Assembly: GCA_022181065.1 (NCBI GenBank)
Contig: BQMY01000122.1
Coordinates: 1-60,517, forward strand
Length of the DNA stretch: 60,517 nucleotides
Source: Melioribacteraceae bacterium
Lineage (GTDB): Bacteria; Bacteroidota; Ignavibacteria; Ignavibacteriales; Melioribacteraceae
Direction of reading: 5' to 3'
The notes under the pieces were generated by a model. That model ran no database searches. It had not been told where the DNA came from and saw only the letters and a list, made by a program, of their open reading frames with translations. Positions within the stretch are counted from its first letter, which is position 1. Every line of letters starts with the position of its first letter. A program made the position numbers and the translations under genes. Below are positions 3,353 to 60,517 of the stretch, one piece after another.

Positions 3353-4336
3353 TTGACAACAGATTATTCCGCACAATACGAAGAACAAATCCGGATATTA
3401 GAAAAAAGATTTAATGAATTACTTGACGAGCAAAAACCGGCTTCATTATACGAGCCCTGCAGGTATATTATAACTTCAGGCGGGAAACGATTACGCCCAT
3501 TCCTTGTGCTTATTTCCGCAAAAGCCGCCGGAGGTGAATTTAATAATGCTTACAATGCGGCAGTTGCTGTTGAATTACTGCATAACTTTACTTTGGTTCA
3601 TGATGACATTATGGATAAAGCCGATTTGAGAAGGGGAAGAGAAACCGTTCATATCAAGTATGGTTTAAATCCCGCGATATTATCAGGTGATAATCTGGTT
3701 GCCATTGCGTACAAGAATCTTATACTGGATTGTAAGAGAAATACAATTGATATACTTAATGAATTTACTAATGGATTAATAGAAGTTTGTGAGGGACAAA
3801 GTTACGATACCGATTTTGAAACTACTGAGAGTGTAACGCTTGATGAATATCTTCTAATGATTCGTAAAAAAACCGCTGTAATGGCAATGATGTGCTGTAA
3901 AGTAGGCGCTTTACTCGCTACTGATGATAAAAAACACATAGAGGCTCTGGGTGATTTCGGAATCAATTTGGGAATGGCATTCCAGATACAGGATGATCTG
4001 CTGGATATTATGGCTGATCAGGAAAAATTTGGCAAAAAAGTTGGCGGAGACCTTGTCGAAGGAAAGAAAACTTTTCTTTATATTAGGGCACTCGAAAAAG
4101 CTGATAAGGCTGACAAGGAAAAACTGCTTGAAGTTACCAGAAATAAAGGTATCGACTGGAATCAGGTTGAGGAATATCGTCAGTTGTATATAAAACTTGG
4201 TGTTATTGATGATGCGGTATCTGAAATTAAAAAATATACCGAGAATGCACTTGGTTCATTAAACCGGTTGCCGGCAAGTGAAGCTATCGAGACTCTGAAA
4301 TGGTTGGCAAATGCATTAATTAAACGCGCGAAATAA
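3353..4336 (+). CDS. Polyprenyl (isoprenyl) diphosphate synthase, probably short chain
   Basis: Condenses isopentenyl diphosphate onto allylic diphosphates. Both aspartate-rich motifs are intact: DDIMD at residues 84-88, with the following LRRG, and DDLLD at 214-218. GGKRLRP near residue 45 binds diphosphate. The residue five before the first motif is Phe79, where long-chain synthases such as E. coli IspB carry Ala; a bulky residue there restricts chain length in this family, so a C15-C20 product is inferred. TTG start preceded by GGGG at good spacing. The stop overlaps the HPr start by one base (TAATG), so translation of the next gene is probably coupled. Likely feeds quinone, carotenoid or cell-wall lipid synthesis. 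Confidence 0.9.
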   Translation: MTTDYSAQYEEQIRILEKRFNELLDEQKPASLYEPCRYIITSGGKRLRPFLVLISAKAAGGEFNNAYNAAVAVELLHNFTLVHDDIMDKADLRRGRETVHIKYGLNPAILSGDNLVAIAYKNLILDCKRNTIDILNEFTNGLIEVCEGQSYDTDFETTESVTLDEYLLMIRKKTAVMAMMCCKVGALLATDDKKHIEALGDFGINLGMAFQIQDDLLDIMADQEKFGKKVGGDLVEGKKTFLYIRALEKADKADKEKLLEVTRNKGIDWNQVEEYRQLYIKLGVIDDAVSEIKKYTENALGSLNRLPASEAIETLKWLANALIKRAK

Positions 4337-4602
4337 TGATAGAAAAAGAAGTGAAAATTATAAATGACGCGGGCTTACATACGCGTCCGGCAGCAACCAT
4401 TGTAAAATTAGCTGCCAAATTTAAATCAGATTTGCAAATTACCAAAGATGGTATTACTATAAATGGTAAATCAATAATTGGTGTCATGACTCTTGCAGCC
4501 GAAAAAGGAAGTTCAATTCACCTCACATTCGAGGGAGAAGATGAAGAGGAAGCGTCAGAAACGATTATCGACTATTTTAACCGTGGATTTGATGAGCTTT
4601 GA
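4336..4602 (+). CDS. ptsH: Phosphocarrier protein HPr
   Basis: Small cytosolic phosphocarrier of 88 residues, standard family length. His15 in AGLHTRPA accepts phosphate from enzyme I. Ser46 lies in NGKSIIGVM, the site phosphorylated by HPr kinase/phosphorylase, which is encoded at 51356-52369. Keeping both sites means HPr can act in phosphotransfer and in Ser-P regulation. It overlaps the preceding prenyl synthase by one base and the following ptsI by four (TTGA), so the three genes look like a coupled operon. No EIIA/B/C gene was found in the window. Confidence 0.96.
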   Translation: MIEKEVKIINDAGLHTRPAATIVKLAAKFKSDLQITKDGITINGKSIIGVMTLAAEKGSSIHLTFEGEDEEEASETIIDYFNRGFDEL

Positions 4603-6347
4603 CAAACACAAAAAACACATATAAAGGAATTGCCGCCGCACCGGGAATTACAATTGCGCGTGCTTATCAATACACAAAAAAAATTGAGAAAGTACAGGAC
4701 GAGCTAATTTCTGATATTGATGAAGCATTGTTAAACCTTGATGAAGCTCTTAATAAATCAAAAAAAGAACTACTGAAAGTTTTCAGTCTTGCAGTAGATA
4801 AACTGGGTGAAAACAGGGCATCTATTTTTGAAGCTCAAATAATGATTCTGGATGACCCCGTTTTAATTGATACAATCAGAAGAAGAATTAAAGAAGAAAA
4901 ACGTCATCCAGAATTTATCGTTGACGATGAAATATCCAAATATCAGGCGCTAATGAATGAGGCGCAGGAAGCTTATATGAAAGAGCGATCCCATGATATT
5001 GAGGATATTAAGAACAGGATCATTCGAAATCTTAAAAAGAAAAAGTGGCAGTCAAGAATTACAAATGATGTTATTGTTATTTCTGATTACCTTACTCCTG
5101 CCGATACGGTTTTGTTCGCCAGAGTTAATGTCAAGGGGTATATTACAAATTTTGGCGGACTAACATCACATGCGGCAATTGTTGCACGATCTCTCAATAT
5201 TCCGGCTATAGTTGGATTACATGAAGCCACAAATAAAATAAAGAACAATGATCTTCTGGTACTTGATGGTTTTCATGGCACTGTTATCATTAATCCTTCT
5301 GAGAAACAAATCAACTATTACCGCGAAAAAATTGAACAGCTCCGCATTTACGATGAAGAACTGGCTGAACTAAAAAACGAACCGGCTGTAACTACCGACA
5401 ATAAAGAAATTCTTCTTCAGGCAAATCTTGATCTTACCGAAGAAATTGCTCTCGTCGTTCAAAATGGTGCAAAAGGTATCGGTTTGGTAAGAACCGAACA
5501 ATTATTTCAGGAATATGATGTATTCCCCGAGGAGGAAGTTCAGTATAATATCTACAGGGAGATCGCGGAAAAGGTTTACCCTGAAAAGGTTATTATCCGT
5601 ACGCTTGACGTCGGAGGTGATAAAGTACTACCGGTTGATGTGAAAGAACCGAATCCCTTTCTCGGTTGGAGAGGTATTCGTTTTCTTCTCGACAATATGG
5701 ACCTATTTAAAACTCAGATTCGAGCTATTCTCAGGGGAAGTGAACATAAAAATCTGAAAATGATGATCCCCATGGTTTGCTCGATCAAGGAAGTGCGTAA
5801 ATTCAAGAAAATCGTAGATGAGTGTAAAGAAGATCTTAGAGAAAGAGGACTTCCATTTGATAACGATATTGATCTTGGAATTATGATTGAAGTACCTTCT
5901 GCCGCAGTTATGGCGAGGGAGTATGCCGAAGAGGTTGATTTTATAAGCATTGGCACCAATGATCTTATCCAGTATTTGTTGGCTGTTGACAGGGGAAATG
6001 AGATTGTATCCGATCTGTATCAGGAATTTCATCCCAGTGTTGTGAGAACGATCGGACACATCATCAAAGAAGCCAAAAATACCGGCAAATGTATGGTTTC
6101 ACTCTGTGGTGAGATGGGTGCTGATACTCTTGCGGTGCCTCTTCTGGTAGGTTTGGGATTAGACTCATTAAGTGTGTCAGCCTCCGCTATCCCGACAATC
6201 AAAAAAATTATCCGAAACCTCAGTTACGAAGAAACACGTGCTCTCGCGGAAAAGTGTTTAACCTTCAGAACCGAAAAAGAAATCAGAAACGAATTAATTC
6301 AGTTTTTTGATAATCTTCAAAATATCTCCGTTCACAAAATCTTTTAA
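4599..6347 (+). CDS. ptsI: PTS enzyme I (phosphoenolpyruvate-protein phosphotransferase)
   Basis: Transfers phosphate from PEP to HPr His15. It has 582 residues, the usual length. The phosphohistidine is H191 in GGLTSHAAIVAR. The PEP-binding barrel shows VRTEQLF, GWRGIRF, GTNDLIQYLLAVDR and the catalytic cysteine C503 in SLCGEMGAD. The start is a TTG whose last two bases begin the ptsH stop (TTGA overlap), indicating translational coupling. With HPr it forms a complete general PTS pair; lacking a sugar permease nearby, a regulatory job is likely. Confidence 0.96.
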   Translation: MTNTKNTYKGIAAAPGITIARAYQYTKKIEKVQDELISDIDEALLNLDEALNKSKKELLKVFSLAVDKLGENRASIFEAQIMILDDPVLIDTIRRRIKEEKRHPEFIVDDEISKYQALMNEAQEAYMKERSHDIEDIKNRIIRNLKKKKWQSRITNDVIVISDYLTPADTVLFARVNVKGYITNFGGLTSHAAIVARSLNIPAIVGLHEATNKIKNNDLLVLDGFHGTVIINPSEKQINYYREKIEQLRIYDEELAELKNEPAVTTDNKEILLQANLDLTEEIALVVQNGAKGIGLVRTEQLFQEYDVFPEEEVQYNIYREIAEKVYPEKVIIRTLDVGGDKVLPVDVKEPNPFLGWRGIRFLLDNMDLFKTQIRAILRGSEHKNLKMMIPMVCSIKEVRKFKKIVDECKEDLRERGLPFDNDIDLGIMIEVPSAAVMAREYAEEVDFISIGTNDLIQYLLAVDRGNEIVSDLYQEFHPSVVRTIGHIIKEAKNTGKCMVSLCGEMGADTLAVPLLVGLGLDSLSVSASAIPTIKKIIRNLSYEETRALAEKCLTFRTEKEIRNELIQFFDNLQNISVHKIF

Positions 6348-6447
6348 GATTAGTTATATTTTTATTTCGTGCATCTTTTTTTCCATTGCGATACATCAAT
6401 AATTAAAGCAAATTAGCTACCACTTTGTAAGAAAACGGAAATCGATC

Positions 6448-9267
6448 TTGAATAGGATATCTTCTCTTCTATTATTTCTTTTAATCTTCTCCGTGAGTTA
6501 TGTTGATGCTCAATATTATTTCTTTGGTAGAAATAAGGTCCAGTATGAAGATTTTGAATGGCAGGTAATTAAAACTGATCATTTTGATATCTATTATTAC
6601 GGAGAATTTGAAGAGATTGCCGAAATTGGAGCAAAGTTCGCAGAAGAGGCCTATGACGAGCTAAAAGTCAAATTTAACCACCTTGTTGTAACCAGAATTC
6701 CTTTAATATTTTATAATACACATATTCATTTCCAGCAGACTAATACTCTTTCAGGATTTATTCCGGAAGGTGTTGGCGGCTTTTTTGAATTTCTGAAGGG
6801 AAGAGTCGTAATTCCATATCTGGGTTCAATAGACAAATTCCGACACGTGATCAGGCATGAGCTTGTACATGTGTTTATGACAAGTAAAGTTTTAAATGTG
6901 ATGAAGGATCACCGTATACCGGCAGAGAGATATCCACCATTATGGTTTGTTGAAGGTATTGCGGAATACTGGTCAACTACATGGGATACACAGGCTGAAA
7001 TGGTGATGCGAGATGCTGTTCTAAATAATCGTTTTGTACCACTCTCTCAGATTTCCAGAATCTATGGTTCATTCCAGATGTATAAACAAGGGCAACATTT
7101 CCTTGAGTTCGTTGCAAACACTTACGGTGAAGATAAAATATTGATGATTCTGGAAAATTTTTGGCGTTTTAATAAGTTTTCAGAAATTCTTGAATTTACC
7201 CTCGGCGACCGTATTGAAGTTATTGATGAGAAGTGGGAATATTCACTCAAACAACGATATTACCCGTTATATGAGAATAGATTTCCGCATACGGTACAGG
7301 CAAAAAAGATAACAAATGAAGGCTTCAACTTTTCTCCCAATTTCTATTCGGGCAACGGAGAGAACGAAATTATTTATCTTGGTAATAAACAAGGTTATTC
7401 ATCACTTTACAAAATGCCGTATAAGCCGGATGAAACCGAGTATGCAGATTCTGAAGTTCTTGTGAGAGGTGAAAAAGAGGATGTTTTTGAGTCATTTCAT
7501 ATCCTTCAACCATCTGTCGCCGTTCACAATGGTGGAACCGCGGCGTTTATCACAAAATCCAAAATGTCAGATATGCTCCACTTTTATGATTTGAAAGAAG
7601 ATGAATACATTAAAGGTAAACGGTTTGATGAGTTGATCACTATCAAGGCACCTGAATTTTCCCGGGAAGGTGACCGTATGGTTTTTTCAGCTACGGACGC
7701 GAAAGGATTCAGTGATATATATCTTTATGATATCGGGATGGATAAATTATCACGTTTAACGAATGACTATTACGAGGATAGTGACCCTGTACTTGATTCT
7801 TCAGGTACTTTTGTTTATTTCGTTTCCGATCGTACCGGAGGTAAATACGAGAAGACTAACAACCTGTTTCGAATAAGCACATCAACCTTACGAACCGAAT
7901 ATGTAACTTACATAAACGCTAATTTTAACAGTCCGGGATTTTCACCGGATTATAAAACATTATATGTCAATTGCGATATTGATGGCAATTTCAATCTTTA
8001 CAAGCTGGAAAAGGATCAGGATGATAACCCCAAGGGTATAACACAGCAGACCCACTTCCTAACAAGTCTTTTTGACTTTACATTTGCTAATAATAATGAA
8101 TTGATCACATCTGCATTTGAAAACTTTTCATTTCATTTTTATTCATTAAAGCTGAATAAAATCCCTGATTCACTTAAAATCTTCACACCAAACGAATTTC
8201 ACTTTGTCGGAAGGGCGTGGGAAGAGGAAAAAATAGTAGTTGATATTGAATCTGACAGACTACGATATGAAAATTCTTACTCGCTCGATTATGCTGTAAG
8301 TCAGGTTATAACTGACCCGGTTTATGGCACGAGGGGAGGGGCACTTCTTACGCTTAGTGATCTGCTCGGCAACGATAAGTACCTCTTTTTACTCTACAAT
8401 ACCGCTGAGGTTACCAGTGAAGTTCTCAGAAGTTTTAATGTTGCGATCACTCGGATAAACTCTGCTAAAAGATCGAATTATGGATATGGTGTTTTTCACT
8501 ATAATGGCAGAAGGTATGATTTAAGGGAATCAAATACTTTTTATTATGAAAGAAGTTTCGGAGGATTTTTCTCACTACTTTATCCATTTTCCAGTTTTCA
8601 GAGAATTGAGGCAAGTGTAAGTCTCGCTAATTCTGATAAGGAACTTCCTGAGGAAGCTTTCATTAACAGGAAATCTCTTCTGCTTTCAAATACAATCAGT
8701 TTTGTGCACGATAATTCACTTTGGGGACCGTCCGGACCGATAGATGGTTCACGATTCAGGGTTCTTCTGGGTTACACAAGTGATATAAAGTACAGCAACG
8801 CTAATTACTACTCTTTTATTGTAGATTACAGGAAATATTTACGTTTAACGACCAGATCAGCAATTGCCACAAGAGCCTCATTATTTTATAACGATGGCAA
8901 GGAAGCCAGAAGATATTTTGCCGGAGGTAGCTGGGATTTACGCGGCTGGCCAAGATGGAGTATCAGAGGTGAAAAGTTATGGTTAAGTTCGGTTGAATTA
9001 CGATTTCCTCTTGTTGATGTACTTTATCTGAAACTACCTATCTTCGGTTTAGCATTCACGAGTATCAGAGGGGCTTTCTATCTTGATGCCGGCGGCGCGT
9101 GGGATAATAAGTATTCTCAAACTCTCGGCAGCATCGGTACAGGTATAAGAATTAATCTTTTTAACGCTATTGCTTTCAGATACGATATTGGCAAAAAAAT
9201 AGAAAATGACTTTAACACATTACAGCCGGGTTTATTTTATCAGTTTTTCTTTGGGTGGGATTTTTGA
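6448..9267 (+). CDS. Secreted MA-like metallopeptidase with WD40-like propeller and surface-antigen-type barrel
   Basis: Large envelope protein of 939 residues. An N-terminal signal peptide (hydrophobic core LLLFLLIFSVSYVDA) precedes a peptidase-MA-like domain with HELVH at 137-141 and EGIAEY at 169-174, the expected zinc-binding helix and glutamate. Residues about 300-620 carry TolB/PD40-like propeller blades (for example FSREGDRMVFSATDA and SDPVLDSSGTFVYFVS). The C-terminal third has BamA/Omp85-like barrel features, including a RYFAGGSWDLRGW segment and a terminal aromatic residue (FFFGWDF). It would be placed in the outer membrane with peptidase and propeller on one face; this topology is inference. 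Start is TTG. The next gene overlaps it by four bases (TTGA). Confidence 0.82.
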   Translation: MNRISSLLLFLLIFSVSYVDAQYYFFGRNKVQYEDFEWQVIKTDHFDIYYYGEFEEIAEIGAKFAEEAYDELKVKFNHLVVTRIPLIFYNTHIHFQQTNTLSGFIPEGVGGFFEFLKGRVVIPYLGSIDKFRHVIRHELVHVFMTSKVLNVMKDHRIPAERYPPLWFVEGIAEYWSTTWDTQAEMVMRDAVLNNRFVPLSQISRIYGSFQMYKQGQHFLEFVANTYGEDKILMILENFWRFNKFSEILEFTLGDRIEVIDEKWEYSLKQRYYPLYENRFPHTVQAKKITNEGFNFSPNFYSGNGENEIIYLGNKQGYSSLYKMPYKPDETEYADSEVLVRGEKEDVFESFHILQPSVAVHNGGTAAFITKSKMSDMLHFYDLKEDEYIKGKRFDELITIKAPEFSREGDRMVFSATDAKGFSDIYLYDIGMDKLSRLTNDYYEDSDPVLDSSGTFVYFVSDRTGGKYEKTNNLFRISTSTLRTEYVTYINANFNSPGFSPDYKTLYVNCDIDGNFNLYKLEKDQDDNPKGITQQTHFLTSLFDFTFANNNELITSAFENFSFHFYSLKLNKIPDSLKIFTPNEFHFVGRAWEEEKIVVDIESDRLRYENSYSLDYAVSQVITDPVYGTRGGALLTLSDLLGNDKYLFLLYNTAEVTSEVLRSFNVAITRINSAKRSNYGYGVFHYNGRRYDLRESNTFYYERSFGGFFSLLYPFSSFQRIEASVSLANSDKELPEEAFINRKSLLLSNTISFVHDNSLWGPSGPIDGSRFRVLLGYTSDIKYSNANYYSFIVDYRKYLRLTTRSAIATRASLFYNDGKEARRYFAGGSWDLRGWPRWSIRGEKLWLSSVELRFPLVDVLYLKLPIFGLAFTSIRGAFYLDAGGAWDNKYSQTLGSIGTGIRINLFNAIAFRYDIGKKIENDFNTLQPGLFYQFFFGWDF

Positions 9268-36010: not shown

Positions 36011-36048
36011 AAAAGGTTTAACTTAATTATTTGTTAAACCTTTTTCTC
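36011..36048 (+). terminator. Intrinsic terminator after mnmA
   Basis: A perfect 12-pair stem, 36011-36022 (AAAAGGTTTAAC) with 36033-36044, loop of ten bases, T-rich end. It abuts the HNH gene start at 36052, which argues against the in-frame TTG at 36031 as that gene's start. Confidence 0.75.
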
Positions 36049-36051
36049 TTT

Positions 36052-36600
36052 ATGGAGGCAAAATTCGAATCAACATCCATAAAACAGAATGGTCTGTTAA
36101 GTGGTAAGGTATTACTGTTAAATCAGAGTTATGAACCTCTTACATTGTGCAATGTAAAAAAGGCACTGATACTGATTTTTCTTGATAAAGCCGAATTGGT
36201 TGTTGACCTGAAGGAGAAAAAAATCCATTCCAGCGCCAGAAATTATCCTTATCCAAGTATAATCAGACTAAAAAACTATGTCAGGATTCCGTATAAAAAC
36301 ATAATCCTGAGCAGGAAAAATGTAATAAAGCGTGATGGGTACAGATGCGGATATTGCGGAAAACGTAACGCTGAATTGACAATTGATCATATTTTGCCAA
36401 AATCGCGTGGTGGTAAAGATACTTGGGATAATCTGGTAACCTGCTGCATAAAGTGTAACAACAAAAAGGGAAATCAAACTCCGAATGAAGCTGAGATGCC
36501 TCTTTTGGTGAAACCATATACTCCTGATCATATTATGCTTATTAAAACAGAGCTTGGCAAACTGGATGAACAGTGGCGACCATTTCTGTTTGATAAATAA
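36052..36600 (+). CDS. HNH endonuclease-family protein
   Basis: A 182-residue protein from the ATG at 36052. The N-terminal half (LLLNQSYEPLTLCNVKKALI, then LDKAELV) is typical of the small cyanobacterial/Bacteroidota HNH family. The C-terminal HNH domain has RDGYRCGYCGK, TIDHILPKSRGG, DNLVTCCIKCNNKKG, with two CxxC pairs for zinc and the DH catalytic element. Role unknown; such genes are common outside mobile elements. No ribosome site is seen, and an in-frame TTG at 36031 lies within the terminator hairpin. Confidence 0.85.
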   Translation: MEAKFESTSIKQNGLLSGKVLLLNQSYEPLTLCNVKKALILIFLDKAELVVDLKEKKIHSSARNYPYPSIIRLKNYVRIPYKNIILSRKNVIKRDGYRCGYCGKRNAELTIDHILPKSRGGKDTWDNLVTCCIKCNNKKGNQTPNEAEMPLLVKPYTPDHIMLIKTELGKLDEQWRPFLFDK

Positions 36601-57688: not shown

Positions 57689-59533
57689 GTGTTTAAGTTG
57701 AGTATTTTTGAAGTTACACAAAAGCGGTTACGATTTTATAATTCCAGAATTAGCAGATATTTCGCCTCAATAAACTTTTCACAAGACAACTATTTGCTCC
57801 TGATTGGCGGCATCGTCGGTCTTTTGGGAGGCATTGGAGCGATAATATTTCATGAAGCAATTGATTTTATTGAGCATGCTTTTTTTTCAGCTCCCGGAAG
57901 TTTTTTCGGGAGCGATTCACTTTTTGATGTAAACTCTCCCGGAGCATACTTACTCATTATTCTTGTCCCTGCAATTGGTGGTTTATTAGTTGGAATCATC
58001 AGTCACTTTTTCGAAAAGGGGGAAAAAGGGGAAGGTATTCCTAATGTAATAACCGCTGTGGCATCTAAAGGTGGAGTTATCAGGGGCAGTATTGCGATTA
58101 AAAAAATTATCGGGTCAGCGCTTAGCATTGGTACAGGCGGCGCAGGTGGAAAGGAAGGTCCGATCGTTCAAATCGGGGCTTCAATAGCATCTTCATTTGG
58201 CAGATTTCTGAATTTATCACAGGACCGATTAAAAATATTGGTTGGATGTGGTGCCGCAGCAGGATTATCAGCAGCGTTTAATGCACCACTTGGAGGAGCA
58301 ATCTTCGCGATGGAGATTATCCTGCGAACATTCAGAGCCAGAACTTTCAGCCCGATAATAATCTCATCTGTAATATCGACGGCATTATCTCGTGGATATT
58401 TGGGTAATGAACCTGCTTTTTCTATTGCAAAATACGATCTTGTATCTGACGTAGAACTATTATTTTATCTGGTTTTAGGATTACTATCGGGTCTGGGCGC
58501 GATCTATTTTGTTAAATCATTTTATTTCATCGAAGATATATTCGCCAAATTCAAGAAAATACCACCAATTGTTAAACCGGCTATTGGTGGACTACTTGTA
58601 GGAATAATCGGATTATGGCTTCCGGGAGTTTATGGATTTTCCTATGACGCCATTAACAACGTTTTATCGCACAATCTTGACATTGTGATAGTAGTGGCGT
58701 TGATATTCATTAAACCAATTGCAACGGCATTTACGATCGGTTCAGGGGGTAATGGCGGCACATTCGCCCCGAGTTTGTTCATGGGAGCTATGTTAGGTGG
58801 AGCATTCGGACATTTCGTTGGAATATTATTTCCCGAATATACTGCTCCTGCGGGCGCGTATGCGCTGGTAGGAATGGCTGGAGTTGTTGCCGGCACAACT
58901 CATGCGTCACTTACCGCACTCATTATGACCTTCGAAATGACAGATAATTACAAAATCATTCTGCCGTTGATGCTTACAATTATTGTCGCGACCACATTTT
59001 CAAAGTCTATATTAAAAGGATCTCTTTATACTATTAAGTTTCTGCGCGAAGGTAAGGAAATAGATATATACGGTCGCCAGGTAAATATTCTAAAAAATAT
59101 ATCAATTAAAAGTCTGATTGATAATAAATTCGATATCATTACTGATAATCTTAACTGGCATCAGATCCTGGAGTATATAAAAAAAGCCAAATACAATACA
59201 ATTCTTGTAAAAGACTCTAATAGTAAACTGGTTGGTACAATAGCGTTCCAGAATATCAGGGATGTGATTATGGATGAAGACACCAAACATATCAGGGATT
59301 TTATAATCGCCAGAGATGTAATGACCGAAAATATTACTAAAGCAACCGAAACAATTAATGGTGAAGAAGCTATAAAATTAATTGATGAAGGCGATCTGGA
59401 ATATTTACCTGTAGTTAATTCATCAACTGGCAGTGTTATGGGAATTGTGTCACGACAAGACCTTTTAAACAAGTATCAAAAAGAACTGTTCATACAGCAA
59501 AGTGAATCAAAAGAAATGAGTATCGGAGAGTAA
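57689..59533 (+). CDS. ClC-family chloride channel/antiporter with CBS domains
   Basis: Polytopic membrane protein of 614 residues. ClC signatures: GGKEGPIVQIGA with the gating/proton Glu present, and GNGGTFAPSLFMGAMLGG. The first anion-filter motif, usually GSGIP, reads GEGIP (Glu for Ser). Two CBS motifs occupy about 470-600, ending in GIVSRQDLL. Start GTG at 57689; a TTG at 57698, six bases after GGTG, is an equal alternative. Confidence 0.93.
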   Translation: MFKLSIFEVTQKRLRFYNSRISRYFASINFSQDNYLLLIGGIVGLLGGIGAIIFHEAIDFIEHAFFSAPGSFFGSDSLFDVNSPGAYLLIILVPAIGGLLVGIISHFFEKGEKGEGIPNVITAVASKGGVIRGSIAIKKIIGSALSIGTGGAGGKEGPIVQIGASIASSFGRFLNLSQDRLKILVGCGAAAGLSAAFNAPLGGAIFAMEIILRTFRARTFSPIIISSVISTALSRGYLGNEPAFSIAKYDLVSDVELLFYLVLGLLSGLGAIYFVKSFYFIEDIFAKFKKIPPIVKPAIGGLLVGIIGLWLPGVYGFSYDAINNVLSHNLDIVIVVALIFIKPIATAFTIGSGGNGGTFAPSLFMGAMLGGAFGHFVGILFPEYTAPAGAYALVGMAGVVAGTTHASLTALIMTFEMTDNYKIILPLMLTIIVATTFSKSILKGSLYTIKFLREGKEIDIYGRQVNILKNISIKSLIDNKFDIITDNLNWHQILEYIKKAKYNTILVKDSNSKLVGTIAFQNIRDVIMDEDTKHIRDFIIARDVMTENITKATETINGEEAIKLIDEGDLEYLPVVNSSTGSVMGIVSRQDLLNKYQKELFIQQSESKEMSIGE

Positions 59534-59649
59534 AACCACTCTCCTGTTGTTATGCTTACATTTGTCCGATAATGTATATTATGTAAACTTTTTGATTCGA
59601 CAACTTCCCCGATTCAAAAAAGATTAAAATTAAATTCTGATTACCGGGT

Positions 59650-60291
59650 TTAAGATGATCTCCTGGAAGTTTTCTTCTTTGGTTCCTCTTTCGGTAAATA
59701 TTTCCAGATATAACCGGCTGCGGTTTTTTGTCTGCCTGTTACAACGAGTGAAATAGCTGATCGTGATATTTCAGCCCACTTGGAAGCTTGACGTAACGAA
59801 ATAAATTCTTTTATCAGATTACCATCTTTATCAAAAGCTCCAACTCTGGTACCTTTGATGGGACCTTCGATAATTTTTTTAGGTTTTGGCGCAAGATTAA
59901 TAAATATTTTATCAACTTTAACCTGTCTCCATAATGCGCCTGCCGAGATGGTTCGTTTTTCTTTCAGAGCTCTGCTGATACAATTTCTTGATACACCGGC
60001 TTCATTGGCAGCCGCCTGAATACTTTCATATTCCTTAATGAAATTTCCTTCAAGATCATACTTACAGACAGATTTTTTCTGATTGCCAAAATCTCTGGAA
60101 TGCGGTTTGATATGTTTATCAGCATCATTGACATACTGAGCCGTAAATCCATGCCAGCTTCTGCCGTCTTTCAGCATCCTTCTCAGTGTATCTTTATGAA
60201 CTCCAAGCTCATCAATCGCTTCGTATTTTGCGCGATATTGCTTGAAAAACTCGTTATTCTTTTTTACAATTATAGGTTTTGCGTAATACAT
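59650..60291 (-). CDS. Stand-alone NUMOD1-repeat DNA-binding protein
   Basis: A 213-residue protein made of three related units: about 20-52 (AIDELGVHKDTLRRMLKDG), 71-122 (VCKYDLEGNFIKEYESIQAA, then GVSRNCISRALKE and AGALWR) and 150-197 (VGAFDKDGNLIKEFISLRQA, then ISRSAISLVVTG and AGYIWKY). Each full unit pairs a beta-hairpin with a helix-turn-helix, the NUMOD1 pattern found beside HNH or GIY-YIG homing nucleases. No nuclease motif is present. The C-terminal tail is Lys/Arg/Ser-rich (KKKTSRRSS). GGAG precedes the ATG. Likely binds DNA; target unknown. Confidence 0.82.
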   Translation of the reverse strand: MYYAKPIIVKKNNEFFKQYRAKYEAIDELGVHKDTLRRMLKDGRSWHGFTAQYVNDADKHIKPHSRDFGNQKKSVCKYDLEGNFIKEYESIQAAANEAGVSRNCISRALKEKRTISAGALWRQVKVDKIFINLAPKPKKIIEGPIKGTRVGAFDKDGNLIKEFISLRQASKWAEISRSAISLVVTGRQKTAAGYIWKYLPKEEPKKKTSRRSS

Positions 60292-60337
60292 TTGAAACTC
60301 CGTTCTCGGTTAGTGGAACATCTTTAATTCCCATAAC

Positions 60338-60517
60338 TCACATGCCCTGTAAGTAAAAATAAAACACCACTATAATAACAAGCACCATCATATAAAATAC
60401 CGGACTCCTGCCACGTTTCTTCACGTTTTTGCTATATCTGATCCGGAGTTTTTTCTTTCTTTTCTCCTTTTCATCCTCTTCAGGTTTATAATGACGTGGC
60501 AGGTAATCAAAACTGCG
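60338..60517 (-). CDS. C-terminal end of a basic, probably tail-anchored protein (5' end beyond window)
   Basis: An open frame enters from the right edge and ends at TGA (60338-60340), giving 59 residues. The sequence has a charged, Lys/Arg-rich stretch (EEDEKEKRKKKLRIRYSKNV), then a single hydrophobic helix (FYMMVLVIIVVFYFYLQGM) at the very C-terminus. It lies upstream of the NUMOD1 gene on the same strand, 46 bases away. I do not recognise it. Tail anchoring is inferred from the helix position. Confidence 0.6.
   Translation of the reverse strand, partial: RSFDYLPRHYKPEEDEKEKRKKKLRIRYSKNVKKRGRSPVFYMMVLVIIVVFYFYLQGM

Follow-up and report, generated by a model that had tools for sequence, protein, structure and literature searches.

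A stand-alone protein of three NUMOD-type units with no recognised nuclease in Melioribacteraceae

What is a gene for that seems to encode the DNA-binding units of homing endonucleases with no cutting domain beside them? The question is posed by an open reading frame on the minus strand (59650..60291) of the 60,517-nucleotide stretch of Melioribacteraceae DNA analysed here (the window, which is a whole contig). The frame starts with ATG and encodes a three-unit NUMOD protein of 213 residues (pI 9.98), an assignment drawn from the frame itself, its Pfam matches and its codon use. The codon use is that of a real gene and is host-like, the CAI-like score (0.748) exceeding those of 40 of the 47 other non-overlapping window ORFs of at least 150 residues, and the GC content is 0.379 against a mean of 0.376 for window ORFs. 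We give a probability of about one half to the reading that the product is a site-specific DNA-binding protein derived from the tail of a homing nuclease, one that comes as a lone gene and serves as a repressor or roadblock.

An AlphaFold2 model built on an alignment of three relatives predicted three successive strand-strand-helix-helix-strand units (residues 7-53, 74-124 and 150-198), separated by low-confidence linkers and followed by a disordered tail. The mean pLDDT was 71.4, and with a pTM as low as 0.31 the arrangement of one unit relative to the next is not fixed by the model. In Pfam, the whole protein scored over the cut-offs of NUMOD1 (3.8e-14, 52.9 bits, cut-off 22.8) and of the I-HmuI-type family PF22083 (2.7e-10, 40.1 bits, cut-off 27). 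Taken in isolation, unit 2 (59920..60072, minus strand) still exceeded the NUMOD1 cut-off (1.7e-7, 31.7 bits), and unit 3 (59698..59844, minus strand; pLDDT means 85-90) fell just under both (PF22083, 7.8e-6, 25.8 bits vs 27; NUMOD1, 1.2e-4, 22.7 bits vs 22.8). By these profile matches, units 2 and 3 are NUMOD1 / I-HmuI-type modules. Unit 1 (60133..60273, minus strand; strands at residues 7-11, 14-19 and 49-53, helices at 22-29 and 33-42; pLDDT means 69-85 over residues 1-50) is diverged: in isolation it matched no NUMOD model in Pfam, and its matches to Vac_Fusion (0.011) and HTH_17 (0.042) were both under cut-off. When units were compared among the window protein and its counterparts in two related genomes, G025 and G122, unit 1 and the first unit of the G025 protein were each other's best match (Z 8.4 and 10.0). 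The place of unit 1 in the predicted three-unit array rests on topology and on this repeat comparison. The first-pass annotation, made from the sequence, had described three NUMOD1 units and proposed a profile search as the check; that search bore it out for units 2 and 3, kept other HTH families under their cut-offs and left unit 1 unassigned. The third units of G025 and G122 were also reciprocal best matches, and unit 1 of G122 was nearest to unit 2 of G025, so the order of descent of units across the three proteins is only partly resolved.

Comparison with solved structures pointed to the same module. Unit 2 (query residues 70-125) aligned with sCTP-23166 (8b6e) at Z 8.4 over 51 of 52 residues (1.5 A), with I-HmuI (1u3e) at Z 8.0 over 58 residues, and with the DNA-binding domain of I-TevI (1i3j) at Z 6.4, a value below 8 and thus one that may reflect a common arrangement. 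The I-HmuI-like fold of a beta-hairpin and a helix-turn-helix is therefore shared by unit 2 through its match to 1u3e, and by units 1 and 3 through topology only. A Foldseek search of the PDB returned weak E-values (best 0.032, to 1u3e), and the single window protein sequence gave two weak matches among solved structures, neither of them relevant. A profile of eight units, drawn from the three related proteins with no outside sequence, matched the DNA-binding tail of I-HmuI (1u3e) best among PDB entries (E 4.8e-7), followed by helix-turn-helix domains of LacI-type repressors from 9.6e-4 onwards; it matched 8b6e weakly (E 0.21). In PHROGs, the matches of the window protein included one family of 88 positions, labelled HNH endonuclease, and one of 115 positions for HTH DNA-binding proteins.

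The remainder of the protein offers no obvious cutter. Among the 14 Pfam families listed for it at E <= 10, a listing whose filters remove most matches above about 0.1, there is no nuclease, in keeping with the original claim that the 213 residues hold no HNH, GIY-YIG or LAGLIDADG motif, and no homing-endonuclease catalytic domain of these or other kinds was found in it. Matches to endonuclease profiles fell toward their C-terminal ends: the NCBIfam group I intron endonuclease model TIGR01453 matched under its cut-off with its best stretch at profile positions 163-205 of 215, and the PADLOC 'HEase' profiles were matched mainly in their C-terminal parts (best stretches 119-166 of 178 and 173-340 of 359). 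The basic tail that had been noted is indeed present, as residues 201-213 (KEEPKKKTSRRSS; 59653..59691, minus strand) are charged, mostly basic and predicted to be disordered (pLDDT <50 at residues 203-210). A separate HNH-like protein of the CxxC...CxxC type, by our reading, lies 23 kb away amid housekeeping genes (36031-36600) and is not part of the NUMOD finding.

Nor did the surroundings of the gene resemble an intron or intein. It is intergenic between host genes, an Rfam scan of the window yielded no family at gathering score, and a tRNA search of the window found none. The intergenic position is not decisive against a homing endonuclease, because free-standing kinds exist, as passages of PMC2988022 describe; the T4 seg and mob genes, for example, are intergenic.

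In its chromosomal setting, the gene lies 226 bp from the contig end. The last 223 bp of the window (60295-60517) overlap the start of another contig of the same genome (C117, positions 1-223) with 221 identical bases, and the two contigs probably join there, with two polymorphic bases. A conserved small host protein, of which 59 residues are seen before the contig end cuts it (60338..60517, minus strand), is encoded on the same strand as the NUMOD gene, 46 bp upstream of it; ahead of the small protein, C117 carries genes that we take to be a diacylglycerol-kinase-like gene (dagK), ftsY and pgsA. On the other side, the ORF list gives a convergent gene (57689..59533, plus strand), presumably for a ClC-type chloride channel with CBS domains, and a hairpin scan placed a terminator-like hairpin at its end (59525..59544, plus strand). 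The NUMOD gene thus sits within an 804-bp gap after the small host gene (59534..60337).

The small host protein was matched in 52 of 79 family genomes including its own (51 relatives), and in none of the 19 relatives that we read was a NUMOD gene found behind it by blastp or the unit profile. The gap from the small protein to the next ORF of at least 110 residues measures 30-100 bp in 15 of the 19 and 280-1050 bp in three, and in the remaining one the contig ends 441 bp past the small protein. Past the gap, seven of these relatives carry a ClC-like gene (29-33% identity), eight carry a hydroxyacyl-CoA-dehydrogenase-like gene, which in the window just precedes the ClC gene, and four have others or none. 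Since none of the 19 relatives carries it behind that small host gene, the NUMOD gene looks like a lineage-specific gain. The first-pass statement that the flanks show no intron or mobile-element trace therefore stands for the sequence itself, but the distribution of the gene suggests that it arrived. A 12-bp inverted repeat flanking it (59435-59446 / 60326-60337) was considered as a pair of element ends or operators and rejected. When one mismatch was tolerated, 18 of 100 shuffled versions of the window yielded as many matches or more; one of the arms falls within the ClC gene, and in the other C117 has a single-base difference. Near the gene, nothing stood out as an operator or a repeated site. 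In a simple scan, the stretch from the small gene to the NUMOD gene showed no terminator-like hairpin on the minus strand, so transcription from the host genes could run on into the NUMOD gene.

Within the order, a two-protein profile (E <= 1e-3) found relatives in three of 164 genomes, namely the window's own, G025 (187 residues, 32% identical to the window protein) and G122 (208 residues, 24%). All three proteins are basic (pI 9.98-10.22), and no full-length relative more than 33% identical to the window protein was found. A search of 79 family genomes with loose limits returned the same three at 1.2e-80 or better, with the next best at 5.0e-4; the other 25 of the 28 genomes with a match at E <= 1 score no better than 5.0e-4, and we did not treat them as relatives. 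The G025 and G122 proteins have NUMOD matches over the Pfam cut-off and no nuclease, and with these as the closest full-length homologues, the catalytic domain that the first pass had named as grounds for refutation did not appear. Plasmids gave no match, phages none to the G122 protein and viral contigs none to the G025 protein.

The three copies belong to three genera and occupy three different chromosomal neighbourhoods. The G122 gene occupies the acpS-trpS interval, 43 bp past acpS. Three congeners gave an acpS match (G121, the fourth, did not), and none of them has a NUMOD gene at that place: one holds spacer only, one a different gene, and one a transposase-like frame at a contig end. 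The spacer without an ORF aligns convincingly with that of G017 only in the gene ends, with no readable target duplication. Across this genus (L016, L017 and L018) the interval is variable, holding the NUMOD gene, what we take to be a YbaK-like gene or a transposase-like frame, or nothing, and may possibly be an insertion hotspot.

So sporadic a presence, in three of the 164 order genomes searched, argues against a core nucleoid protein, one of the two roles first suggested for the gene. The corresponding explanation, a nucleoid-type protein that coats DNA with little sequence preference, draws on the high positive charge and the basic, disordered tail; we judge it quite unlikely, given this rarity and the long target sites that NUMOD regions of homing endonucleases contact according to the available text of PMC3943268.

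The window's own genome holds a second NUMOD1 match over cut-off (C76:5612-5704), which reads as a 55-residue excisionase-like helix-turn-helix and was set aside as a cross-match. The surrounding region (C76, about 4100-8200; L014, L189) looks mobile, with genes that we presume to be ArdC-like, polymerase-like, HNH_3 and GIY-YIG genes close together.

Could the nuclease instead be encoded elsewhere, the window protein being the DNA-binding half of a split homing endonuclease? The HNH_3 protein in the C76 region is the only one in its genome, and a short GIY-YIG protein is encoded about 1.1 kb from the G025 gene, so each might be proposed as a partner. The HNH_3 model found no match in G025 or G122, however, and the 36 GIY-YIG matches in the three genomes fall in frames of 85-164 residues (26 matches) and 47-72 residues (four), in frames of 555-635 residues that are UvrC-like by length (five), and, under cut-off, in a 311-residue G025 frame that we take to be UvrC-like by reading (one). 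We consider a split enzyme very improbable.

At wider ranks NUMOD1 is rare: a class sample of 294 genomes had it in four, and a phylum sample of 395 in 16. A profile of the three proteins had matches in five of 391 class genomes and 12 of 395 phylum genomes. Two of the class matches (G209, L062; G003, L063) were judged by eye only. The first of these (L062:730-1686) has a unit-like N-terminus (residues 14-49, from the unit profile on the same protein at L013) before a putative metallophosphoesterase, by reading, and reads as a NUMOD-like unit with a partner other than a homing nuclease. A Pfam scan of the phylum matches covered ten proteins, representing all 12 genomes but the window's own and G180; the G180 match (L065) is a LacI-type regulator by reading. 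Six of the ten carry GIY-YIG at E <= 0.001, three of these under cut-off. The other four have no Pfam nuclease: L066 shows an HNH-like stretch by eye, L071 carries DUF4379, and the last two are L072 and L074. Nuclease-less NUMOD proteins are thus not unique to the window, G025 and G122 family, since L071, L072 and L074 have no recognised nuclease. In L072:1045-2226 and L074:1024-2127 the order of domains is NUMOD4-NUMOD1-NUMOD4 with no Pfam HNH match, and these two are possibly degenerate HNH homing enzymes of the same phylum.

Viral relatives were more numerous, with 51 loci on viral contigs found by profile and 10 by the single window protein. We scanned 47 distinct proteins, covering 38 of the 51 loci, eight of the 10 and one of three loci from a further search; copies with proteins identical to included loci, the split frames L099 and L119, and L112, which has no listed frame with a unit, were left out. 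NUMOD1 was found in 44 of the 47, GIY-YIG in 22 and HNH_3 in 11, and nuclease carriers number up to 33 of 47, the table not giving the overlap between the two sets. Among known phages, 76 records matched the window protein, none covering 80% of the query, and 13 of the best 20 are annotated endonucleases, including T4 MobB. A fold search of viral models gave 168 matches at E <= 0.001, and among the best 50, most of those named were HNH, intron-associated or homing endonucleases.

From among five candidate stand-alone viral relatives, only L081 remained as a clean nuclease-free array: on a phage contig, it encodes 276 residues with four units and no Pfam nuclease, starting 5 bp after an ATPase-like gene. 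The start of L107 looks by eye like the end of a GIY-YIG domain (in Pfam it matches no nuclease), the frame of L119 is split, and L128 has one unit only. L099 was rejected for in-frame GIY-YIG-like sequence upstream, broken by stops (by eye); for this GIY-YIG and NUMOD frame (L099:1300-2395), either decay or stop-codon recoding is possible.

Such relatives give weight to the explanation that the window gene is a functionless remnant, the tail of a free-standing homing endonuclease that has lost its catalytic half and is now drifting, which we regard as doubtful, though it deserves to be taken seriously. The frequent nuclease fusions just described fit it, as does the occurrence of broken genes of this kind (by reading, L099 and L119 are parts of interrupted GIY-YIG frames), and so do the sporadic presence and differing sites of the three copies in the order. 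Codon use adds to this: the G122 copy (0.674) scores below all four of its reference genes (lowest 0.682), and as the G025 copy exceeds only four of 11, host-like codon use is clear for the window copy alone. What weakens the idea is that inspecting the translated flanks of all three by eye turned up no trace of a nuclease (226 bp upstream and 116 downstream in the window, 266 and 439 in G025, 135 and 293 in G122), with spacers to the upstream host gene of just 46 bp in the window and 43 bp in G122, and that three diverged frames are intact at 24-33% identity. The window and G122 models each hold three complete units in the same pattern, and the G025 protein aligns collinearly across window residues 4-200.

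The phage matches also bear on a protective role, in which the protein would shield the host, or the element that carries it, by covering either a homing-endonuclease target or a phage control site. With homing nucleases such as T4 MobB among the nearest phage matches, the array could bind a like site without cutting. Against this, the PADLOC matches of the three proteins comprise two 'homing endonuclease' profiles and a weak 'mad1' (1.6e-4 for the window, 0.004 for G122) that spans the helix-turn-helix only, near G025 there is just a HEPN_Apea match under cut-off, and no defence gene was seen by reading beside the window copy. We find this explanation unlikely.

The reading that we prefer, a single-gene, site-specific DNA-binding protein, would work as follows. 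We infer from its family that the window protein binds DNA over a long site: the three NUMOD1 / I-HmuI-type modules would bind double-stranded DNA sequence-specifically, unit by unit along it. NUMOD-type regions let homing endonucleases contact sites of up to 30 base pairs, as reported in passages of PMC3943268, and Paulinella 'DNA-binding sCTPs' bind double-stranded DNA, according to part of PMC12176269. The gene would have been gained singly behind a same-strand host gene, 46 bp past the small protein near dagK-ftsY, and could consequently be read from the host transcript. With no cutter, the bound protein would occlude DNA, so that repression or roadblocking would be its simplest activity. 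A repressor role is suggested by the absence of catalysis and by the precedent of I-TevI, whose DNA-binding domain serves as a transcriptional autorepressor (passages of PMC2988022 and PMC3943268). The regulator half of the first-pass proposal accordingly survives as an inference, with no target site or conserved neighbour found; the three different neighbourhoods in three of 164 genomes show no conserved target, which counts against reading the array as a regulator. In a broader version, these genes would form a small family of free-standing regulators made from the DNA-reading part of homing endonucleases, spreading as cassettes of one gene into the spacers that follow host genes, and their origin would parallel, in bacteria, the one proposed for AP2/ERF regulators; this strikes us as speculative and on balance rather unlikely.

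Should the array prove to be maintained and to recognise a long, specific site, it would be a natural multi-module DNA-binding protein without a nuclease, from which one could learn how DNA is read by NUMOD units and how selfish elements supply parts for host regulation. The three diverged relatives in one family are natural variants across which unit order and target can be compared. Should the array be a remnant, it records the decay of a homing gene.

Set against known systems, the window protein shares its module, by profile and fold, with I-HmuI, T4 MobB and similar proteins, in which NUMOD1 (PF07453) and PF22083 form the tails of HNH and GIY-YIG homing endonucleases; the T4 mobB product matches residues 70-198 at 28%. 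Those proteins have a catalytic domain, whereas the window protein consists of the modules only. I-TevI, matched by the fold of unit 2, offers a homing-nuclease DNA-binding domain that works without cutting (PMC2988022, in part), but I-TevI retains its nuclease, while the window protein has none and no operator was found for it. Paulinella sCTP-23166 (PDB 8b6e) is stand-alone and shares the unit fold, which is nearly the one seen in a single NUMOD unit, yet it has one unit, is eukaryotic and organelle-targeted, and its profile match to the window units reaches only E 0.21. Its family has over 200 members that bind double-stranded DNA (PMC12176269, in part) and may derive from the homing-nuclease module, a possibility for which sequence profile support is weak at that E-value. 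The phage contig L081 resembles the window protein in having repeated NUMOD units and no Pfam nuclease, but is viral and has four units, and a Pithovirus LCPAC406 'NUMOD1 domain protein' (186 residues), also viral, is likened to it by name and length only. Plant AP2/ERF transcription factors offer an analogy only, having a DNA-binding domain also common to HNH homing endonucleases; we take that domain and its fold to differ from the NUMOD unit.

In the literature, descent of AP2/ERF from HNH homing endonuclease genes has been proposed (PMC5318435, in part), and a Paracoccus phage protein with a NUMOD1 HTH domain has a hypothesised role in replication (passage of PMC6536676). The passages of PMC8093625 and PMC11270868 mention NUMOD1 with nucleases only, and among titles, abstract openings and passages we found no study of a stand-alone NUMOD1-array protein in bacteria. 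The module is already well known, then, and there are precedents for its use without a nuclease: the Paulinella sCTPs judging by fold, L081, the Pithovirus protein judging by name, and the Paracoccus phage protein as the text describes it. The novelty lies in an array of three such units, free of any recognised nuclease, that related bacteria carry at unrelated sites in their chromosomes.
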